From assembly GCA_949291675.1 (NCBI GenBank), contig CASEWR010000200.1, forward strand, positions 1 through 38,447: a DNA stretch of 38,447 bases, in the 5' to 3' direction. Below the pieces are notes generated by a model. That model did no database searches and had not been told where the DNA came from. It saw only the letters and a list, made by a program, of their open reading frames with translations. The translations under genes and the position numbers were made by a program. Shown here piece by piece: positions 9,094 through 38,447 of this stretch. The stretch is from an uncultured Desulfovibrio sp. GTDB taxonomy: Bacteria > Desulfobacterota > Desulfovibrionia > Desulfovibrionales > Desulfovibrionaceae. Within the stretch, counting starts at the first letter, position 1. Each line of letters begins with the position of its first letter.

Positions 9094-9194
9094 AGGCTGT
9101 GCGGGATGTGGCCTTCGGGCCTGAATGTTCATTTTTTTGCTATGGAGGCAGCGCTCCCTCCCCTGGACCAGCGGGGGTGTCTGCGCTGAATTTT

Positions 9195-12754
<3,560 letters not shown>

Positions 12755-12801
12755 CCCGCTGTTGTTACAGTCGATATGCAGAGTCTCCCAAAGAGGATAC
12801 A

Positions 12802-15267
12802 GTGAATAGTACACTTGCAGAGAATCAGATTGATATTGAAAAGGAACTTCGCAGATCGTATCTGGAATACTCCCTTTCTGTCATCATAGGCCGCGCCATT
12901 CCTGATGCCAGGGACGGCCTCAAACCGGTGCACAGGCGCATTTTGTACGCCATGTCCGAGCTCGGCAACGTCTACAACAGGGCGCACAAGAAGTCCGCCC
13001 GCGTTGTCGGTGACGTCATCGGTAAGTATCACCCCCATGGTGACAGCGCCGTGTACGATGCCCTGGTGCGTCTTGCCCAGGACTTCAGCATGCGCGATCC
13101 CCTGGTCGATGGTCAGGGTAACTTCGGCTCCATTGACGGTGACTCCCCTGCAGCCATGCGATACACGGAAGTGCGCATGTCCCGCCTGGCAGGGGAATTT
13201 CTTGGCGATATCGACAAGAATACCGTTGATTTCCGTCCCAACTACGACGGGTCGCTGGATGAGCCGGCCATTTTGCCCACCAGGGTACCCAACCTGCTGC
13301 TCAACGGCTCCTCGGGCATTGCCGTGGGCATGGCGACCAATATTCCCACCCACAACCTGGGCGAGCTGTGCGACGCACTGATTGTCCTGCTCGACAACCC
13401 CGATGCCGGCGTGGACGAGCTTATGGACTACGTCAAGGGGCCTGACTTCCCCACAAAGGGCTTTGTCTACACAGGCAAGGGCCTTGCCGATGCCTACCGC
13501 ACCGGCCGCGGCACAGTGAAGATTCGCGGCAAGGTGGAAGTGGAGGAGCGCGGCAAGAACGCACACTCCATTGTCATCCGCGAGATCCCCTACGGGGTCA
13601 ACAAGTCCATGCTGGTGAAGAAGATCTCCTCCCTGGTCAACGAGAGGAAGATCGACGGCGTGGTGGGTCTGCGCGACGAGTCCGACCGCAAGGGCATACG
13701 CATTGTTCTGGACCTGCGCAGGGGCGTCATTCCGGACATCATCACCAATTATCTCTACAAATACACAGCACTTGAGACCAGCTTCGGCATCAACATGCTG
13801 GCTGTGGTGGACAACAGGCCTGTGCTGCTCAACTTGAAGACAGCCCTTGCCTGCTTCCTTGATTTCCGCAAGGAAGTTGTCATCCGCAGAACCCGCTTTG
13901 ATCTCGAGAAGTCCGAGGCCAGGGCCCACATTCTGCGCGGCCTGCGCATTGCCATCGACAATATTGACGAAGTCGTGCGCCTCATTCGTGCCTCGCAAAG
14001 CCCCGAGGAAGCCAGAAACGGCCTCATGACCCGCTTCGGCCTTGATGAAGTGCAGGCAAAGGCCATTCTTGACATGCGTCTGCAGCGCCTCACAGGTTTG
14101 CAGCGCGAGGAAATCGAGAGCGAATACAATCTCCTGCTCAAGAACATTGAGTACTTCAAGTCCATTCTTGCAGACGCGGAAGTCCTGCGCGGCGTCATTC
14201 GTGACGAAGTGACAGCCATAAAGGAGGCCTATGCCACCCCGAGACGCAGCGTCATTGTGGCCGACGAGGCTGCTGACATTGATCTTGAAGACCTCATTGC
14301 AGACGATGATGTGGTGATCACCCTCTCGCACAGGGGCTATATCAAGCGCACCAGCCTGGAGAACTATCAGCAGCAGCATCGCGGCGGCAAGGGGATCTCC
14401 GGTGCATACACCAGCGAAGATGACTTTGTGCAGGACTTCCTCACGACCACCAATCATCAGTACCTGTGCCTGTTCACCAACAAGGGGCGCATGTACCAGC
14501 TCAAGGCGCTTCGCGTTCCCGAGGGCAGCCGGACTGCCAAGGGCATGCACATCAACAACCTCATCCCGCTCGGAGAAGGGGAGAATGTCACCAATGTGCT
14601 TGCCACACGCCACTTCCCGGAGGACAAGTTCTTCTTCTTTGTGACCAGGACAGGCATGGTGAAGCGCTCTCAGGCCTCGCTCTATGCCCGTCACAACAGA
14701 AACGGCATCATTGCCCTGTCCCTGCGTGATGGCGACAGCCTCGTGCTGGTGCGTCCCCTGCGCCAGGACGATCACACCGTGCTCATCACCAAACTCGGCT
14801 ATGCCATCCGCTTTGCCTGCTCCGATGTGCGCGCCATGGGCCGCAATGCCGTGGGCGTCAAGGGCATCAGCCTGAAGAAGAACGACGAGGTCGTGGCTGC
14901 TGTCATTCTCAAGGGTTCGGACATGACCACAACGATTATGTCCCTCTCGGAATGGGGCTATGGCAAGCGTTCCTCCGCTGACCTCTACCGCCTGCAGTCC
15001 CGCGGCGGCAGCGGCATCATCAATTTCAAACTGACCAACAAGACAGGCAACGTGGTTGCGGCCATGCCCGTTACGGACAAGGACGGTCTTGTGGTGCTGA
15101 CATCGACCAACAAGATCATCCGCATCAGCGTTGGCGATGTTGTGTCGAGAAGCAGGGCTACCATGGGCGTCAAGATCGTCAATCTTGATCCCGGTGCCCA
15201 TGTGGTTGCATGCGATCGCATTGACGATGGCGCTGCAGTCACGGAGAAAACGGAATCCTGGGAGTAG
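12802..15267 (+). CDS. gyrA: DNA gyrase subunit A
   Basis: 821 residues. This is the DNA-breaking and rejoining half of gyrase. GTG 12802 is the start, with AGAGGATAC before it. The catalytic tyrosine is Tyr121 in [10 protein letters not shown]. The quinolone-determining region [10 protein letters not shown] has Ser82 and Asp86, the residues of quinolone-sensitive enzymes. The C-terminal beta-pinwheel carries repeated blades ([41 protein letters not shown]). It follows gyrB after 47 nt. Confidence 0.98.
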
Positions 15268-24926: not shown

Positions 24927-25913
24927 CTATGCAAGCTCTTTTTCCGGGGAATCTGTACTTTCTGCCTGGACAGCGTTTGCCTCAATGGCTGCCTCCAGAG
25001 CTTCCGTCATACCAAGGGCAGAAAGAAGTGCCTGCAATTCTTCTTCATTTTTGTAATGGAGTGTGACCTTGCCCTTTTCATTGCTGCCGCTGATCTTTGC
25101 CTTGCAGTGCAGGGCGCTGGCCAGATCCTTCTCCAGCTGCTTGAAGACAGGGCTCTTGGGCATGCGTGTTCTGGGCTTTGCCAGGGGGATGGGCACAGCG
25201 TTTTCATCCTGCCAGGGGAAGGGCTGGCCTGCCTTTGCAGCGGCAATGAGGTCCTCGCAGTCACGCACAGAGAGATTGCCTGCCAGGATGTAGTCCAGAA
25301 AGGCCAGCAGGGTGTCTTCCTGTGCGGTGAAGGACAGCAGGCAGCGGGCGTGGCCTGCGCTGATGCGTCCTTCCTGCAGGGCCTGCATGGCAGGGGCGGG
25401 CAGCTGCAGCAGGCGCAGGGAGTTGGCAATGGAAGGTCTGCTCTTGCCGAGGCGCCTGGCAAGCTCCTCCTGGGTGATGCCGAGCCTGTCTTTCAGGTCC
25501 TGCAGGGCAGAGGCCTCTTCTGCGGGATTGAGGTCTTCGCGCTGCAGATTCTCGATCAGGGCAACGAGCATCACGTCTTCGTCGCTGAGATCCTTGAGGT
25601 AGACAGGGATCTCGCTGAGATGGGCCATCTGGGCAGCGCGCCAGCGGCGCTCGCCGGCAATGATCTGATACTTGCCTTTTTCCCTGCTTCGGCGCACAAG
25701 CAGGGGCTGGATGACACCCTGAAGCTCAATGGATTTGGCGAGCTCCTCAAGGCCCTGGTCTGTCATGCTCTTGCGTGGCTGATCGGCATTGGGAACCAGA
25801 GCGTCAATGGCAACGTTGAGTATCTGATTTGTGCGTATGTCGGAGTCAATGCCGGCAGACTGCAGATCTGCCGGGAACAGGGCGTCGAGCCCGCGACCAA
25901 GTCCTTTTGACAC
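24927..25913 (-). CDS. parB: Chromosome-partitioning protein ParB (Spo0J)
   Basis: 328 residues from GTG 25913. The start SKGLGRGLDALF is the conserved ParB N-terminus, and AAGGAGC lies just upstream; a longer frame to 26066 would overlap the divergent gene and is rejected. The CTP-binding motif GERRWRA is at about 87-93, ALIENLQREDLNPAEEA at about 118-134 and the helix-turn-helix at about 147-170. The C-terminal dimer domain is present. ParB binds parS, loads as a CTP-dependent sliding clamp and recruits SMC. Six perfect parS sites lie in this window. Unusually, parB is separated from parA by a gene on the other strand. Confidence 0.96.
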   Translation of the reverse strand: MSKGLGRGLDALFPADLQSAGIDSDIRTNQILNVAIDALVPNADQPRKSMTDQGLEELAKSIELQGVIQPLLVRRSREKGKYQIIAGERRWRAAQMAHLSEIPVYLKDLSDEDVMLVALIENLQREDLNPAEEASALQDLKDRLGITQEELARRLGKSRPSIANSLRLLQLPAPAMQALQEGRISAGHARCLLSFTAQEDTLLAFLDYILAGNLSVRDCEDLIAAAKAGQPFPWQDENAVPIPLAKPRTRMPKSPVFKQLEKDLASALHCKAKISGSNEKGKVTLHYKNEEELQALLSALGMTEALEAAIEANAVQAESTDSPEKELA

Positions 25914-25998
25914 TGTCTGCTCCTTGTTCTCACTTCCCTCTTGTCCTGTGCAGGGCTTTCGCGACAAGCAAGCTGACGTAAGAGAAATGGAGGTTACT

Positions 25999-26535
25999 AT
26001 GTTTGATCTGGAAACGCATATCGTCCACATGAAGGACGTCAGGAATCCGAAGGAATGCTTCTTCATCTCTGCCGAACTGGGTCAGCGTTGTGCCGATGCG
26101 CTGCAGGGCTGTCTGCCGCTGCTTGGTCCGGCAAGCGAACTGCCGGCACATATCTGCCCCTGTCACGGACCTGATGGCAGGGCTTTTGCCTATGTCCTCA
26201 GTCGCGAGCTGTGGAATGCAGTGAAGTACGATCTGCGCTCTGCCGAGCGCGAGCTCTTCTACAAGCACGGCGGCGTTGTGTCAGAGGATCTGGAGGACTT
26301 CAAAAAATTCCTCATGCACTGGGACAATGACTATGAGTACAGCGGACAGGTGCACTGCCCCAACTGCAGCACGTCCACAGAGGACTGGCGTACGGACCCG
26401 GCCCATCCCTTTTCCTTAAGCAACGCCAATACAGGCGGGCTGCTGGTCTTTCAGTGCGCACAGTGCGGTGCAACCATACGTCTCAAGCACTTTAAGGATG
26501 AGGTGGTCTGCGAGCACACCATGCCGCACAGATAG
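25999..26535 (+). CDS. Hypothetical protein with zinc-ribbon-like cysteines, between parB and parA
   Basis: 178 residues, not recognised. Cys53-Pro-Cys55-His, Cys120-x-x-Cys123 and Cys153-x-x-Cys156 look like metal-binding knuckles; the last two pairs could form one zinc ribbon. The middle (about 70-118) is charged and probably helical. GGAGG at 25989-25993 with a 5-nt spacer fixes the start at ATG 25999. It is divergent from parB (85 nt between starts) and convergent with parA, so it shares a promoter region with parB. Codon use is like its neighbours. A role in segregation is only suggested by position. Confidence 0.8.
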   Translation: MFDLETHIVHMKDVRNPKECFFISAELGQRCADALQGCLPLLGPASELPAHICPCHGPDGRAFAYVLSRELWNAVKYDLRSAERELFYKHGGVVSEDLEDFKKFLMHWDNDYEYSGQVHCPNCSTSTEDWRTDPAHPFSLSNANTGGLLVFQCAQCGATIRLKHFKDEVVCEHTMPHR

Positions 26536-26628: not shown

Positions 26629-27402
26629 TCAGGCAATGGCCTTGCGATGCATGATTTCCTGGGCAAGGCCTATGTAGGCAATGGCGCCCTTGGACTTGAT
26701 GTCATAGTGGATGATGGACTTGCCGTGGCTCGGGGCCTCGGACAGGCGCACGTTACGGGGGATGTTGGTGCGCAGCACATAGCGCGGCATCTTGCTGGTG
26801 ATTTCCTCCATGACGTCGCGGGACAGTCTGTTACGCGTGTCGAACATGGTGAGCAGCACACCGAGGATGCCGAGTTTGGGATTGATCTTGCGTACCTTGG
26901 AATAGGTTGCCATGAGCTTGGCAATGCCTTCCAGGGCAAAGTATTCGCACTGCAGGGGAATGAGCAGCTCGGTTGCAGCGCACAGGCCGTTCAGGGTGAG
27001 CAGGCCTAAGGAAGGCGGGCAGTCGATGATGATGTATTCATAGTCATCGGCAACCTGGGCAATCACATTCTGCAGATAGAACTCTCTGGCAATCTCGCCG
27101 ACCAGCTCCACTTCCACGGCCACCAGGTTGATGGAGCCGGGCAGCACACTCAGATAAGGCGAGCGCACGCTGACAATGGCGGAGCGCACAGCCTCTGGCG
27201 TGGGCGTGTAAAAGACGGAATACAGGTCTCCGGGCAGTCCTGATGTGGGAATGCCGAAGCCGCTGGTGGCATTGGCCTGCGGGTCGCAGTCAATGAGCAG
27301 TGTCTTGCGCTCAAGGACGGAAAGCGAGGCAGCAAGGTTGATGGCAGTTGTGGTCTTGCCCACACCGCCTTTCTGATTGGCAACACAGATGACTCTGGTC
27401 AT
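26629..27402 (-). CDS. parA: Chromosome-partitioning ATPase ParA (Soj)
   Basis: 257 residues, the usual size of chromosomal ParA without an N-terminal HTH. The deviant Walker A motif KGGVGKTT is at about residues 11-18 after MTRVICVANQ. DCDPQANAT and DCPPSLGLLTLNGL are the A' and B motifs. It forms ATP-dependent DNA-bound gradients that pull ParB-parS complexes apart and can also modulate DnaA. GGGGAGAG precedes ATG 27402; a longer frame to 27474 is rejected. A parS site lies 114 nt upstream of the start. The order on the minus strand is parA, zinc-ribbon gene (opposite strand), parB. Confidence 0.97.
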   Translation of the reverse strand: MTRVICVANQKGGVGKTTTAINLAASLSVLERKTLLIDCDPQANATSGFGIPTSGLPGDLYSVFYTPTPEAVRSAIVSVRSPYLSVLPGSINLVAVEVELVGEIAREFYLQNVIAQVADDYEYIIIDCPPSLGLLTLNGLCAATELLIPLQCEYFALEGIAKLMATYSKVRKINPKLGILGVLLTMFDTRNRLSRDVMEEITSKMPRYVLRTNIPRNVRLSEAPSHGKSIIHYDIKSKGAIAYIGLAQEIMHRKAIA

Positions 27403-27515
27403 GCTCTCTCCCCTGCTGGTTTCTGAATATCGTGCAAACTTATGCTCCGTTTTTCTGACGTTGTCCCGGCGCAAGGCAGGGACCTGGGAAAAGACTGAAG
27501 CCCCTTGTCCGTGTA

Positions 27516-27531
27516 TGTTTCACGTGAAACA
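27516..27531. promoter_or_regulatory. parS site upstream of parA
   Basis: TGTTTCACGTGAAACA, 16/16 match to the bacterial parS consensus. Here the palindrome extends to 22 bp (27513-27534). It may both nucleate ParB and let ParB repress parA. Confidence 0.95.
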
Positions 27532-35706: not shown

Positions 35707-36510
35707 ATGCCCGGCTTTCCCTCAGGTCTCAGACAGCCAGAAGGCTCCATGCGCTTTGCTGCAGATGCCCTGCTGCTGCCCTGTTTCGTGAGGGAATGCC
35801 TGAGTCTGCATCCAGCAAAACCAGCAAATCCCCTGCGTGACCAGGCCATTGTGCCCGGCTGCAGGGGATTTTTAGCTGCAGCAGATCTTGGCTGCGGCTG
35901 CGGTGCCTCGTCGCTGGCCCTGGGTTTGCGTCTGCCCATGCTGAAGGTGCTGGGAGTGGATAAGGAGCCTGAGCATATTGCCTGTGCCAGAGAAAATGCC
36001 CAGTCCCTGCAGCTTGCCACACGCACTGTCTTTACCTGCCTGGACCTGAAGGACCTGGCAACGGCCCAGGGCCTTGAAGCCGCTTTTGGCAGCCCAAGGC
36101 CGTTTTGCGACATGGTGCAGATGAACCCTCCCTACTGGGAAGAGGGCAGGGGACGCGTCTCTGCCAAAAGCCTCAATGAAACAGCCAGGCGCGGCAGCAA
36201 GGTGCTCCCCGTCTTCCTGAAGGCTGCACGCAGCCTGCTTGTGCATCATGGCCGCCTCTTTGTCATCTGGCCTGCCAGTGACCTGTCAGCCCTTGTCTGT
36301 GCCCTGGCAGCCACTGGTTTTGGGTTGCGCACAGTGTGCCTGGTGCGCCCCTTTGCCGCACGTCCGGCAACACGCGTGCTGTGTGAGGCATACAAGGGCG
36401 CTGCAGCAGAGAGTGTGCTGCTTCCGGACATAGTGCTCTATGAAGGGGATGGCACGGGAACGCGTGTTGTCACTGCCAGGGCACACGCTTTCTGTCCCTG
36501 GCTGAACTGA
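35707..36510 (+). CDS. TrmN6/YfiC-like tRNA (or RNA) N6-adenine methyltransferase
   Basis: 267 residues. The SAM site is AAADLGCGCGASSLALGL (about 57-74), and the N6-adenine motif NPPY is in MVQMNPPYWEEGRGRVS (about 140). The N-terminus FPSGLRQPEGSMRFAADALL fits the family, so ATG 35707 is chosen although no ribosome-binding site is clear; ATG 35749 with AAGG upstream is an alternative. It probably modifies A37 of tRNA-Val, by family. Its last roughly 300 bp, together with the adjacent parS, are the source of the downstream tandem repeats. Confidence 0.85.
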   Translation: MPGFPSGLRQPEGSMRFAADALLLPCFVRECLSLHPAKPANPLRDQAIVPGCRGFLAAADLGCGCGASSLALGLRLPMLKVLGVDKEPEHIACARENAQSLQLATRTVFTCLDLKDLATAQGLEAAFGSPRPFCDMVQMNPPYWEEGRGRVSAKSLNETARRGSKVLPVFLKAARSLLVHHGRLFVIWPASDLSALVCALAATGFGLRTVCLVRPFAARPATRVLCEAYKGAAAESVLLPDIVLYEGDGTGTRVVTARAHAFCPWLN

Positions 36511-36528
36511 GTCTGTGTGCACAGACGC

Positions 36529-36544
36529 TGTTTCACGTGAAACA
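36529..36544. promoter_or_regulatory. parS site 1 of the array
   Basis: TGTTTCACGTGAAACA, perfect, 19 nt after the methyltransferase stop codon. It is probably the ancestral site that was amplified. Confidence 0.95.
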
Positions 36545-36646
36545 CTCCATCCCCTGCCTTAGCAGAATTTCAGCTTTGGACAGTGGGACAGGAAGCACGC
36601 TCTCGGCCATACAGACAGGGCAGCATAGCATAGCACAGGACTCCTC

Positions 36647-36955
36647 GTCTTCCTGAAAGCTTCCTGAAAGCTGCCTGAAGGCTGCAGTGGCCTGCATGTG
36701 CAGCACACTCTTTGTCCTCTGGCCTGCCTGTGACCTGGAAACCTTTGTCTGTACCCTGGCAGCCACTGGCTTTGAGGTGCGCGCTGTATGTCTGCTGCGC
36801 CTCTGTGTCGCACGCCCGGCAGTATGTCCTGCGTGAGGCAGGCACAGGCGCTGCCGCCCCAGGAGTGTGCTGCTCCAGTGTTCTGTGAAGGTGAGAGAAC
36901 GGGAACGCGTGTTGTCACTGCCAGGGCACACGCATTCTGTCTCTGACTGAACTGA
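36647..36955 (+). pseudogene. Decayed copy of methyltransferase 3' end (unit 1)
   Basis: It aligns to the gene from GTCTTCCTGAA to the stop. It is a diverged type with several small indels; the block around 36830-36890 reads TCCTGCGTGAGGCAGGC in place of the gene's CTGTGTGAGGCATAC. The frame is broken. Confidence 0.85.
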
Positions 36956-36970
36956 GCGTGTGCCAGGCGC

Positions 36971-36986
36971 TGTTTCACGTGAAACA
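36971..36986. promoter_or_regulatory. parS site 2 of the array
   Basis: TGTTTCACGTGAAACA, perfect, 442 bp after site 1. Confidence 0.95.
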
Positions 36987-37082
36987 CTCCATCCCTGCTG
37001 CAGCAGAACTTCAACTTCGAGCTGTGGGACAGGGATCACACTCTCGTATATTCAGGCAGGGCAGTACGGCACAGGACTCCTC

Positions 37083-37398
37083 GTCTTCCTGAAAGCTGCC
37101 CGAAAGATGCCTGAAGGCTGCACGCGGCCTGCATGTGCAGCACAATCTTTGTCCTCTGTCCTGCCATTGACCTGAAAATCTTTGTCTGTACCCGGCAGCC
37201 ACTGGCTTGTGGTGCGCACTGTGTGTCTGATGCATCTCTGTGTCGCGTGCCCGGCAACACGCGTGCTGTGTGAGGCATACAAGGGCGCTGCAGCAGAGCG
37301 TGTGGCAGCTCCCGGACATAGTGCTCTATGAAGAAGATGGCACGGGAACGCGTGTTGTCACTGCCGGGGCACACGCATTCTGTCCCTGGCTGAACTGA
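37083..37398 (+). pseudogene. Decayed copy of methyltransferase 3' end (unit 2)
   Basis: The last about 140 bp, from CAACACGCGTGCTGTGTGAG onward, are nearly identical to the gene. The upstream part carries indels that break the frame. It ends at the same TGA as the gene. Confidence 0.88.
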
Positions 37399-37414
37399 GA
37401 GTGTGCACAGGCGC

Positions 37415-37430
37415 TGTTTCACGTGAAACA
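37415..37430. promoter_or_regulatory. parS site 3 of the array
   Basis: TGTTTCACGTGAAACA, perfect, 444 bp after site 2. Confidence 0.95.
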
Positions 37431-37500
37431 CGCCATCCCCTGCCGCAGCAGAATTTCAGCTTTGAACTGTGGGGCAGGGAGCACAGCACAGGGCTCCCCG

Positions 37501-37790
37501 ACTTTCTGAAAGCTTCCTGAAAGCCGCACGAGGCCTGTTTGTGCAGCACAATCTTTGTCCTCTGTCCTGCCAGTGACCTGGAAAACTTTGTCTGTACTCT
37601 GGCAGCCACTGGCTTTGAGGTGCGCGCTGTGTGTCTGATGTGCCTCTGTGTCGCATGCCCGGCAAGTCGTCCTGCGTGAGGCAGGCACAGGCGCTGCCGC
37701 CCTGAGCGCGCTGTTCCAAGGATCTGTGAAGGGGAGGGAACAGGAACGCACGTCCTCACTGAGTGTACGCATGCTGACCCTGGCTGAACA
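37501..37790 (+). pseudogene. Decayed copy of methyltransferase 3' end (unit 3)
   Basis: Same diverged type as unit 1 (TCCTGCGTGAGGCAGGC present), slightly shorter. The gene-end block is altered and the stop is lost (CTGAACAGG). Confidence 0.83.
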
Positions 37791-37809
37791 GGCCTGTATC
37801 CACCGGCGC

Positions 37810-37825
37810 TGTTTCACGTGAAACA
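37810..37825. promoter_or_regulatory. parS site 4 of the array
   Basis: TGTTTCACGTGAAACA, perfect, 395 bp after site 3. Confidence 0.95.
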
Positions 37826-37927
37826 CTCCACCCCCTGCCGCAGCAGGACTTCAGCTTTGAGCTGTGGGACAGGAAGCATACTCTCGGCCATACAGACAAG
37901 ACAGCACAGCACAGCACAGGGCTCCCC

Positions 37928-38242
37928 GTCTTTCTGAGAGCTGCCAGAAAGCTGCCGGAAGGCTGCAGTGACCTGCGTGTGCAGCACACTCTTTGTCCTC
38001 TGGTCTGCCAGTGACCTGTAAACCCTTGTCTGTGCTCTGGCAGCCACTAGCTTTGGGTTGCGCACAGTGTGCCTGGTGCGCCCCTTTGCCGCACGCCCGG
38101 CAACACGCGTGTGTGTGAAGCATACAAGGGCGCTGCAGCAGAGAGTGTGCTGCTCCCGGAAATAGTGCTCTATGAATGGGATGGCACGGGAACGCGTGTT
38201 GTTACTGCCAGGGCACACGCATTCTGTCCCTGGCTGAACTGA
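37928..38242 (+). pseudogene. Decayed copy of methyltransferase 3' end (unit 4)
   Basis: Gene-like type; from about 38040 to the TGA it is close to the gene, with a 1-bp loss in CGCGTGTGTGTGAAGC. Its spacer after parS is nearly identical to that after site 2. Confidence 0.88.
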
Positions 38243-38257
38243 GCGTGTGCCAGGCGC

Positions 38258-38273
38258 TGTTTCACGTGAAACA
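38258..38273. promoter_or_regulatory. parS site 5 of the array
   Basis: TGTTTCACGTGAAACA, perfect, 448 bp after site 4. Confidence 0.95.
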
Positions 38274-38368
38274 CTCCATCCCTGCTGCAGCAGAACTTCA
38301 ACTTCGAGCTGTGGGACAGGGATCACACTCTCGTATACTCATACTGGGCAGCACGGCACAGGCTCTCC

Positions 38369-38447
38369 GCCTTCCTGAAAGCTGTGCGGGATCTGCATGT
38401 GCAGCACGAATCTTTGTCCTCTGTCCTGCCAGTGAGCTGGAACCCCT
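38369..38447 (+). pseudogene. Start of a further decayed copy (unit 5), cut by window end
   Basis: CTTCCTGAAAGCTGTGCGGG followed by CTGCATGTGCAGCACGAATC matches the start of units 1 and 2. A sixth array parS would be expected about 270 bp beyond the window. Confidence 0.8.

Follow-up and report, generated by a model that had tools for sequence, protein, structure and literature searches.

A parS array near the replication origin of an uncultured Desulfovibrio probably arose by tandem amplification of parS with the tail of a neighboring gene

Why does one end of a Desulfovibrio contig carry parS, the predicted binding site of the partition protein ParB, again and again at short intervals, each time behind what looks like the end of the same gene? 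The window analyzed here, 38,447 bp from an uncultured Desulfovibrio sp. (family Desulfovibrionaceae; GenBank assembly GCA_949291675.1), is the entire contig C200 (CASEWR010000200.1) of a 3.07 Mb assembly in 245 contigs (98.6% complete, 2.64% contamination). It contains five perfect copies of the 16-bp parS sequence TGTTTCACGTGAAACA in steps of 442, 444, 395, and 448 bp downstream of a small methyltransferase gene (Table 1), and the contig terminates within this array, at the start of a sixth unit. A preliminary description of the window had reported the same five sites at 395–448 bp intervals, and their positions bear it out. A reversed-pattern control yields no perfect match in the genome versus 24 real ones, and 3 versus 27 when up to two mismatches are allowed, which excludes a chance origin of the sites. 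Judged from its sequence, the locus is very probably an origin-near chromosomal centromere array that was built by tandem amplification of parS together with the tail of the adjacent gene, the extra tails having decayed and parS having been selectively kept.

The array continues on a second contig. Contig C40 (L005; 8,956 bp) carries five more perfect parS sites (L005 8582, 8165, 7647, 7144, and 6931), and the last 141 bases of C200 are the reverse complement of its end (L005 8956–8816; 141 of 141 identical). An exact overlap of 141 bases is the kind of remnant that a de Bruijn assembler can leave between adjoining contigs, and the join is supported by the gene order in three relatives (G006, G013, and G073), which agrees with it. 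The joined contigs hold ten perfect sites, the four steps given above being followed by steps of 408, 417, 518, 503, and 213 bp, and the array lies within the 3,887 bp that separate the methyltransferase gene from a convergent PAS-GGDEF gene. The array DNA has six matches in the genome (40 of 64 candidates were scored), all of them on C200 or C40, and a mobile repeat is thereby ruled out.

A unit combines about 300 bp of gene tail, the parS that follows it, and intergenic DNA amounting to some 100 bp or more. The earlier view that the repeat duplicates the methyltransferase gene's 3′ end is thus correct in that each parS follows a tail copy, and falls short in that the unit includes intergenic DNA as well. 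Units 1–9 are 72–88% identical in pairwise comparisons; unit 10 has only part of the unit in common with them (63–76%) and is without a gene tail. When the genome is searched with the methyltransferase protein, 12 matches other than the gene are obtained; they fall exclusively on C200 and C40, and a single unit can account for several of them. Ten of these 12 contain internal stops, and all eight tail copies that were tested carry insertions or deletions that are not a multiple of three. Copies 2–9 differ among themselves by 0.221, 0.201, and 0.220 at the three codon positions (50, 46, and 46 variable columns of 91 each), whereas between the gene and the copies the third position differs most (0.247 versus 0.193 and 0.176, p = 0.0009); since this excess is found in the gene-versus-copies comparison only, it fits a coding role for the gene alone. 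No coding constraint is seen in the extra gene tails; they are decayed, as the preliminary description had maintained. The stops, the frameshifts, and the absent codon bias rule out that the tail copies encode a conserved peptide.

The parS sites themselves are perfect in all ten units. When units 1–9 are aligned, 16 of 16 parS columns are invariant versus 131 of 288 ungapped flank columns; the longest invariant run (17 columns) lies at parS, the next longest is 6, and a run of 16 was reached in 20 of 20,000 column shuffles. On the tree of the units the flanks have undergone 256 changes over 282 columns, from which 14.5 changes would be expected in parS and none is seen. The invariance counts are nearly unchanged under three other aligner settings. 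Unit 10 was excluded from these nine-unit tests because only a partial unit is in common; in a 10-unit run parS is again invariant at 16 of 16 columns versus 10 of 34 in the flanks. In ungapped comparisons the difference is 57% over the 20 nt preceding parS and 48% over the 20 nt following it (values that are inflated by indels), as against 0% in parS. The result is not an artefact of having picked perfect sites: counting the gene, nine copies of the tail are recovered by an independent protein search, and a perfect parS lies 19–35 bp downstream of every one of them; nor does a decayed parS turn up in the window or C40 arrays when up to three mismatches are tolerated. All of this suggests that selection kept every parS perfect while the flanks diverged, in keeping with the earlier expectation that parS is conserved above the flanking repeat.

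Could the array instead be a neutral tandem repeat, expanded by unequal recombination, in which parS is uniform merely through recency or gene conversion? Exchange between units is real, since the units are mosaic and some of their stretches are 95–100% alike: units 3 and 6 are identical at the start, and units 7 and 8 have a common middle. The unit nearest to unit 5 is mostly unit 2 in early windows along it and the methyltransferase gene itself in later ones, and such switching of the nearest neighbor along a unit is the pattern expected from repeated unequal exchange. Head-to-tail homologous units with mosaic nearest neighbors, the marks of unequal exchange in satellite DNA, are therefore present. 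Neutrality might also draw on the flanks beside parS in three other arrays taken up below (hemW, G036, and G132), which are little diverged (mean 0.03–0.23), although these say little. On the other hand, gene conversion would make the flanks uniform too, and in the methyltransferase array it is parS alone that is uniform while both flanks differ as strongly as stated above; a gapped alignment still gives 0.91 changes per flank column versus 0 in parS. A like contrast is found in the second array of another contig, C122, where the flank differences are 0.54 and 0.40 versus 0.025 in parS, its sites having been found through the parS pattern itself. A neutral repeat is thus improbable.

Selection might also act on some other element of the unit, such as a terminator or an RNA that serves the convergent genes, with parS simply carried along. 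Two convergent genes do meet here, and the parS nearest the GGDEF gene lies within a 36-bp perfect palindrome (L005 6921–6956) that could double as a terminator. However, this palindromic extension is absent from the other nine sites, and the sole long invariant run in the unit is parS (16–17 columns), so that such an element seems very unlikely to be what is conserved. Extended palindromes also occur around the parS at window position 27516 and in G036 and G132.

Amplification of parS with its neighboring gene tail accounts better for the array, since the 16/16 invariance of parS and the copied tails without codon bias together argue that parS and tail were amplified and only parS was kept. 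An ancestral parS would have lain just downstream of the methyltransferase gene, judging from the relatives, and would have been duplicated in tandem together with the gene tail and some intergenic DNA; tandem amplification of such a unit had already been proposed, and the alignment of the units bears it out. Repeated unequal exchange between units, for which RecA may be the agent, would then have produced up to nine further sites and the mosaic units, and the extra gene tails would decay while selection keeps each parS perfect. From what is known of ParABS biology, the most likely function of the array would be to load ParB, whose gene lies 10 kb away, at high density; the partition complex used in ParA-driven segregation of the origin could thereby become larger or more robust.

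The same gene pair is found in relatives, compared here as one genome per species. In G006, which has the closest methyltransferase ortholog (63% identity), a single parS (reading AGTTTCACGTGAAACA on that strand) separates this gene from the GGDEF ortholog (68%). In G013 and G073 the pair encloses two parS sites about 650 bp apart, the first with one mismatch, and a stretch of 63–64 nt that comprises gene tail and parS occurs twice, with 78% identity between the copies. The number of parS sites between the methyltransferase and GGDEF genes is therefore one, two, or ten, depending on the species. The agreement of the gene neighbors on both sides of the array with G006, G013, and G073 also speaks against an artefact of assembly or binning, in which read misassembly or a second strain would have produced the repeats. 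The fragmentation and contamination of the assembly, and the fact that C200 and C40 both break in the array, are what such an artefact might leave, but units 1–9 differ from one another by 12–28%, far above sequencing error, and the separate assemblies of G036 and G132 also contain parS tandem arrays, of other sequence. It is thus highly improbable that the array is an artefact.

In all, the genome contains 24 perfect and 3 one-mismatch parS sites, and 11 of the perfect sites and one of the others lie within 8 kb on contig C122 (L006). Three tandem copies of a hemW tail, each 221–222 bp long and each with a perfect parS, are found there at L006 10301–10965, and in ungapped alignment the later copies are 83% and 62% identical to the first; this locus repeats the construction of the methyltransferase array, gene tail plus parS in tandem. 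An IS200-like transposase gene (Y1_Tnp, E = 1.4e-36; L006 11025–11441, minus strand) lies beside the hemW-tail array, between two parS sites. The second C122 array (L006 15343–18071) has five parS sites in steps of 541–762 bp, one of them with one mismatch, and contains inner 126–127-bp repeats; a description of it as non-coding was dropped because open frames of up to 245 codons cross it. In six of the seven single-contig genomes of the genus (all but G078), with G003 treated as circular, the distance between hemW and parB is about 70 to 310 kb; C122 is thus plausibly part of the origin half as well.

A survey of 288 genomes of the family, in which one mismatch was allowed and a reversed control pattern gave at most one match per genome, places the present genome first with 27 parS-like sites. 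It is followed by G132 with 12, G036 and G070 with 10 each, and G006, G013, and G073 with 9 each; the remaining 281 genomes have at most 7 sites each, and 38 of them have none. Self-comparisons for duplications (the best 14–15 matches per locus) cover 17 genomes with at least two sites in the fetched stretch, a non-random set chosen by site number or kinship; several genomes with three or more sites (e.g., G035, G039, and G012) are outside it. Arrays of three or more tandem units are present in three of the 17, the genome studied here (G000), G036, and G132, and short 63–91-nt duplications with parS in both copies in three others (G013, G073, and G282). In the other 11, no duplication of at least 50 nt with parS in both copies was found among the matches listed. 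The hemW gene is directly followed by parS in G006 (two sites, one of them with one mismatch) and G070 (five sites), and no tandem units at these two hemW loci are among the matches listed.

In G132, which belongs to another genus, tandem parS units of 217–218 bp lie at L095 3803–4239 and L096 4649–6223, and in G036, of the same genus, parS units lie 1.4–1.7 kb apart (L050 6090–9272). Both arrays are upstream of a parA homolog on one contig (59–61% identity), and the contigs of both genomes end in or near their arrays; the two G132 contigs match at 195 of their last 200 bases. Apart from this resemblance within G132, what the arrays of the present genome, G036, and G132 have in common is limited to 18–30 nt at parS; they therefore arose from different DNA. 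The parS difference is 0 in four of the five other arrays or sub-arrays and 0.025 in the fifth, and these five are weak tests of selection because their sites were found by the parS pattern, mostly number three copies, and have flanks that are little diverged.

It may be that the centromeres of the Desulfovibrionaceae evolve like satellite DNA, the DNA that flanks parS being repeatedly amplified, the passenger decaying, parS surviving, and a fast-changing copy number setting centromere strength; the chances that this holds appear about even. This genome would have undergone it separately at two or more loci, and no fewer than two other species would have done so as well, with the methyltransferase tail, the hemW tail, and other DNA upstream of parA as the passengers. 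In the satellite centromeres of eukaryotes, unequal exchange creates mosaic units and a short protein-binding box (the CENP-B box) is kept in diverging monomers. The array studied here is like them in its unequal exchange, mosaic units, and conserved short box; however, they have thousands of units and are epigenetic, and here there are ten units and the element is sequence-defined.

The window also encodes the cognate ParA and ParB of a chromosomal ParABS system, and the dnaN-gyrB-gyrA cluster lies on the same contig, 21–27 kb from the array (Table 1); the array therefore belongs to the origin-proximal partition region. A plasmid (sopC-type) centromere is ruled out, as the dnaN, gyrB, gyrA, and tRNA synthetase genes mark the contig as chromosome. 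A scan for DnaA boxes gave 4 matches versus 1.67 expected; 12 of 100 shuffles reach 4, and this is not above chance.

Several points weigh against the account given here or limit its reach. The junction of C200 and C40 is based on the exact 141-bp overlap and on the gene order of relatives, not on reads, and because the contigs break at a shared 141-mer the true number of units could exceed ten. The GGDEF-side site, in unit 10, may be an old, separate parS and not a copy; G013 and G073 likewise have a parS on the GGDEF side. Because array columns are not independent and units exchange sequence, the P values serve as guides; conservation is also fair in parts of the flanks, with 16-column windows down to 7.6% mean difference. 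Among other genomes, G070 has ten sites and no tandem units among the matches listed, and G273 has a 191-nt direct duplication (L099 961–1361; 68%) with parS in one copy only, which counts against parS always surviving. Finally, no canonical SMC protein (TIGR02168) was found above the cut-off in this 98.6% complete assembly, the best match to the SMC model being a JetC-type Wadjet SMC-like protein (L120 556–4155, contig C147), so a role of the array in SMC loading cannot be assumed.

How does the array compare with known centromeres? The preliminary description took scattered single copies to be the usual state of chromosomal parS, and this does not hold: clustered chromosomal sites are common (PMC3899335, PMC8357415), and in Myxococcus xanthus 22 parS sites are packed into 3 kb at a distance of 4 kb upstream from parA (PMC3899335, PMC3778016). 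That cluster is similar to the present array in placing many chromosomal parS sites within a few kb, near parAB and the origin; its sites, however, vary in sequence and orientation, and the portions of these papers available do not mention gene-derived tandem units. The sopC centromere of the F plasmid, in the available part of its description, consists of twelve tandem copies of a 43-bp repeat, in which there are ten 16-bp inverted repeats (PMC6238139), and is similar in being a tandem array of units with a 16-bp inverted repeat that is the target of a ParB protein (binding is predicted in the present case). Unlike the short, regular units of that plasmid element, those of the chromosomal array are 213–518 bp long, are largely decayed coding sequence, and carry the universal chromosomal parS. 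Corynebacterium glutamicum has ten parS sites in a 35-kb cluster and Bacillus subtilis has eight over about 0.75 Mb (PMC7083940, PMC8357415), and such redundancy has been proposed to give robust segregation (PMC7083940, PMC7022226). Both share redundant origin-proximal parS with the present genome, and tandem units are mentioned for neither in the excerpts available from these sources. Neither a parS array derived from a neighboring gene tail nor the recurrence of such arrays from unrelated DNA was found in the accessible portions of the open-licence literature; dense chromosomal parS clusters are known, and their tandem gene-tail origin appears to be new.

The array would offer a visible route to centromere gain in bacteria, in which parS is copied with its neighbor and only the 16 bp are kept, and it suggests a parallel with the repeat-based centromeres of eukaryotes. 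It makes directly testable why the number of parS sites spans one to more than twenty. Since short-read assemblies can break at parS arrays, parS numbers may be undercounted.

Table 1. Features of the array and of its surroundings. Positions without a prefix are those of the window.
Feature	Position	Strand	Remark
Small class-I methyltransferase gene, MTS-type domain, NPPY motif	35707–36510	+	Repeat derives from its 3′ end (from about 36204)
Recurring gene tail, unit 1	36204–36510	+	Reading frame still open
parS 1	36529–36544	.	16/16
Repeat unit 2	36545–36986	+	442 bp; intergenic DNA, decayed gene tail, parS 2 at 36971–36986
Repeat unit 3	36987–37430	+	444 bp; parS 3 at 37415–37430
Repeat unit 4	37431–37825	+	395 bp; parS 4 at 37810–37825
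Repeat unit 5	37826–38273	+	448 bp, mosaic; parS 5 at 38258–38273
Repeat unit 6, start	38274–38447	+	Up to contig end
Convergent PAS-GGDEF gene	L005 4964–6865		Beyond the C40 parS sites
dnaN, gyrB, gyrA	9099–15267	+	Mark the replication-origin neighborhood
ParB (ParB_N, HTH_ParB, ParB_C)	24927–26066	-	Only ParB_N match of the genome at E <= 0.001
ParA-type partition ATPase	26629–27474	-	Start codon uncertain
Single perfect parS	27516–27531	.	Within 24-bp palindrome, a short way upstream of parA; 41 bp separate it from the start in the open reading frame list
Variant parS	L115 3573; L116 3119; L117 3608, 3632; L118 3589, 3613; L119 5422

The canonical sequence GTTNCACGTGNAAC was not found in 49 of 79 genomes of the genus, yet 73 of the 79 have a match to the ParB of the window, a few of them weak. 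That these 49 genomes as a group are without parS is ruled out by variants with one or two changes in the parB stretches of five single-contig genomes. Such variants, with a changed center (such as TGTTTCACATGAAACA or TGTTTCACGGGAAACA), lie no more than a few kb from parB in several genomes without canonical parS (Table 1). To judge from these sites, the sequence of parS drifts within the genus.

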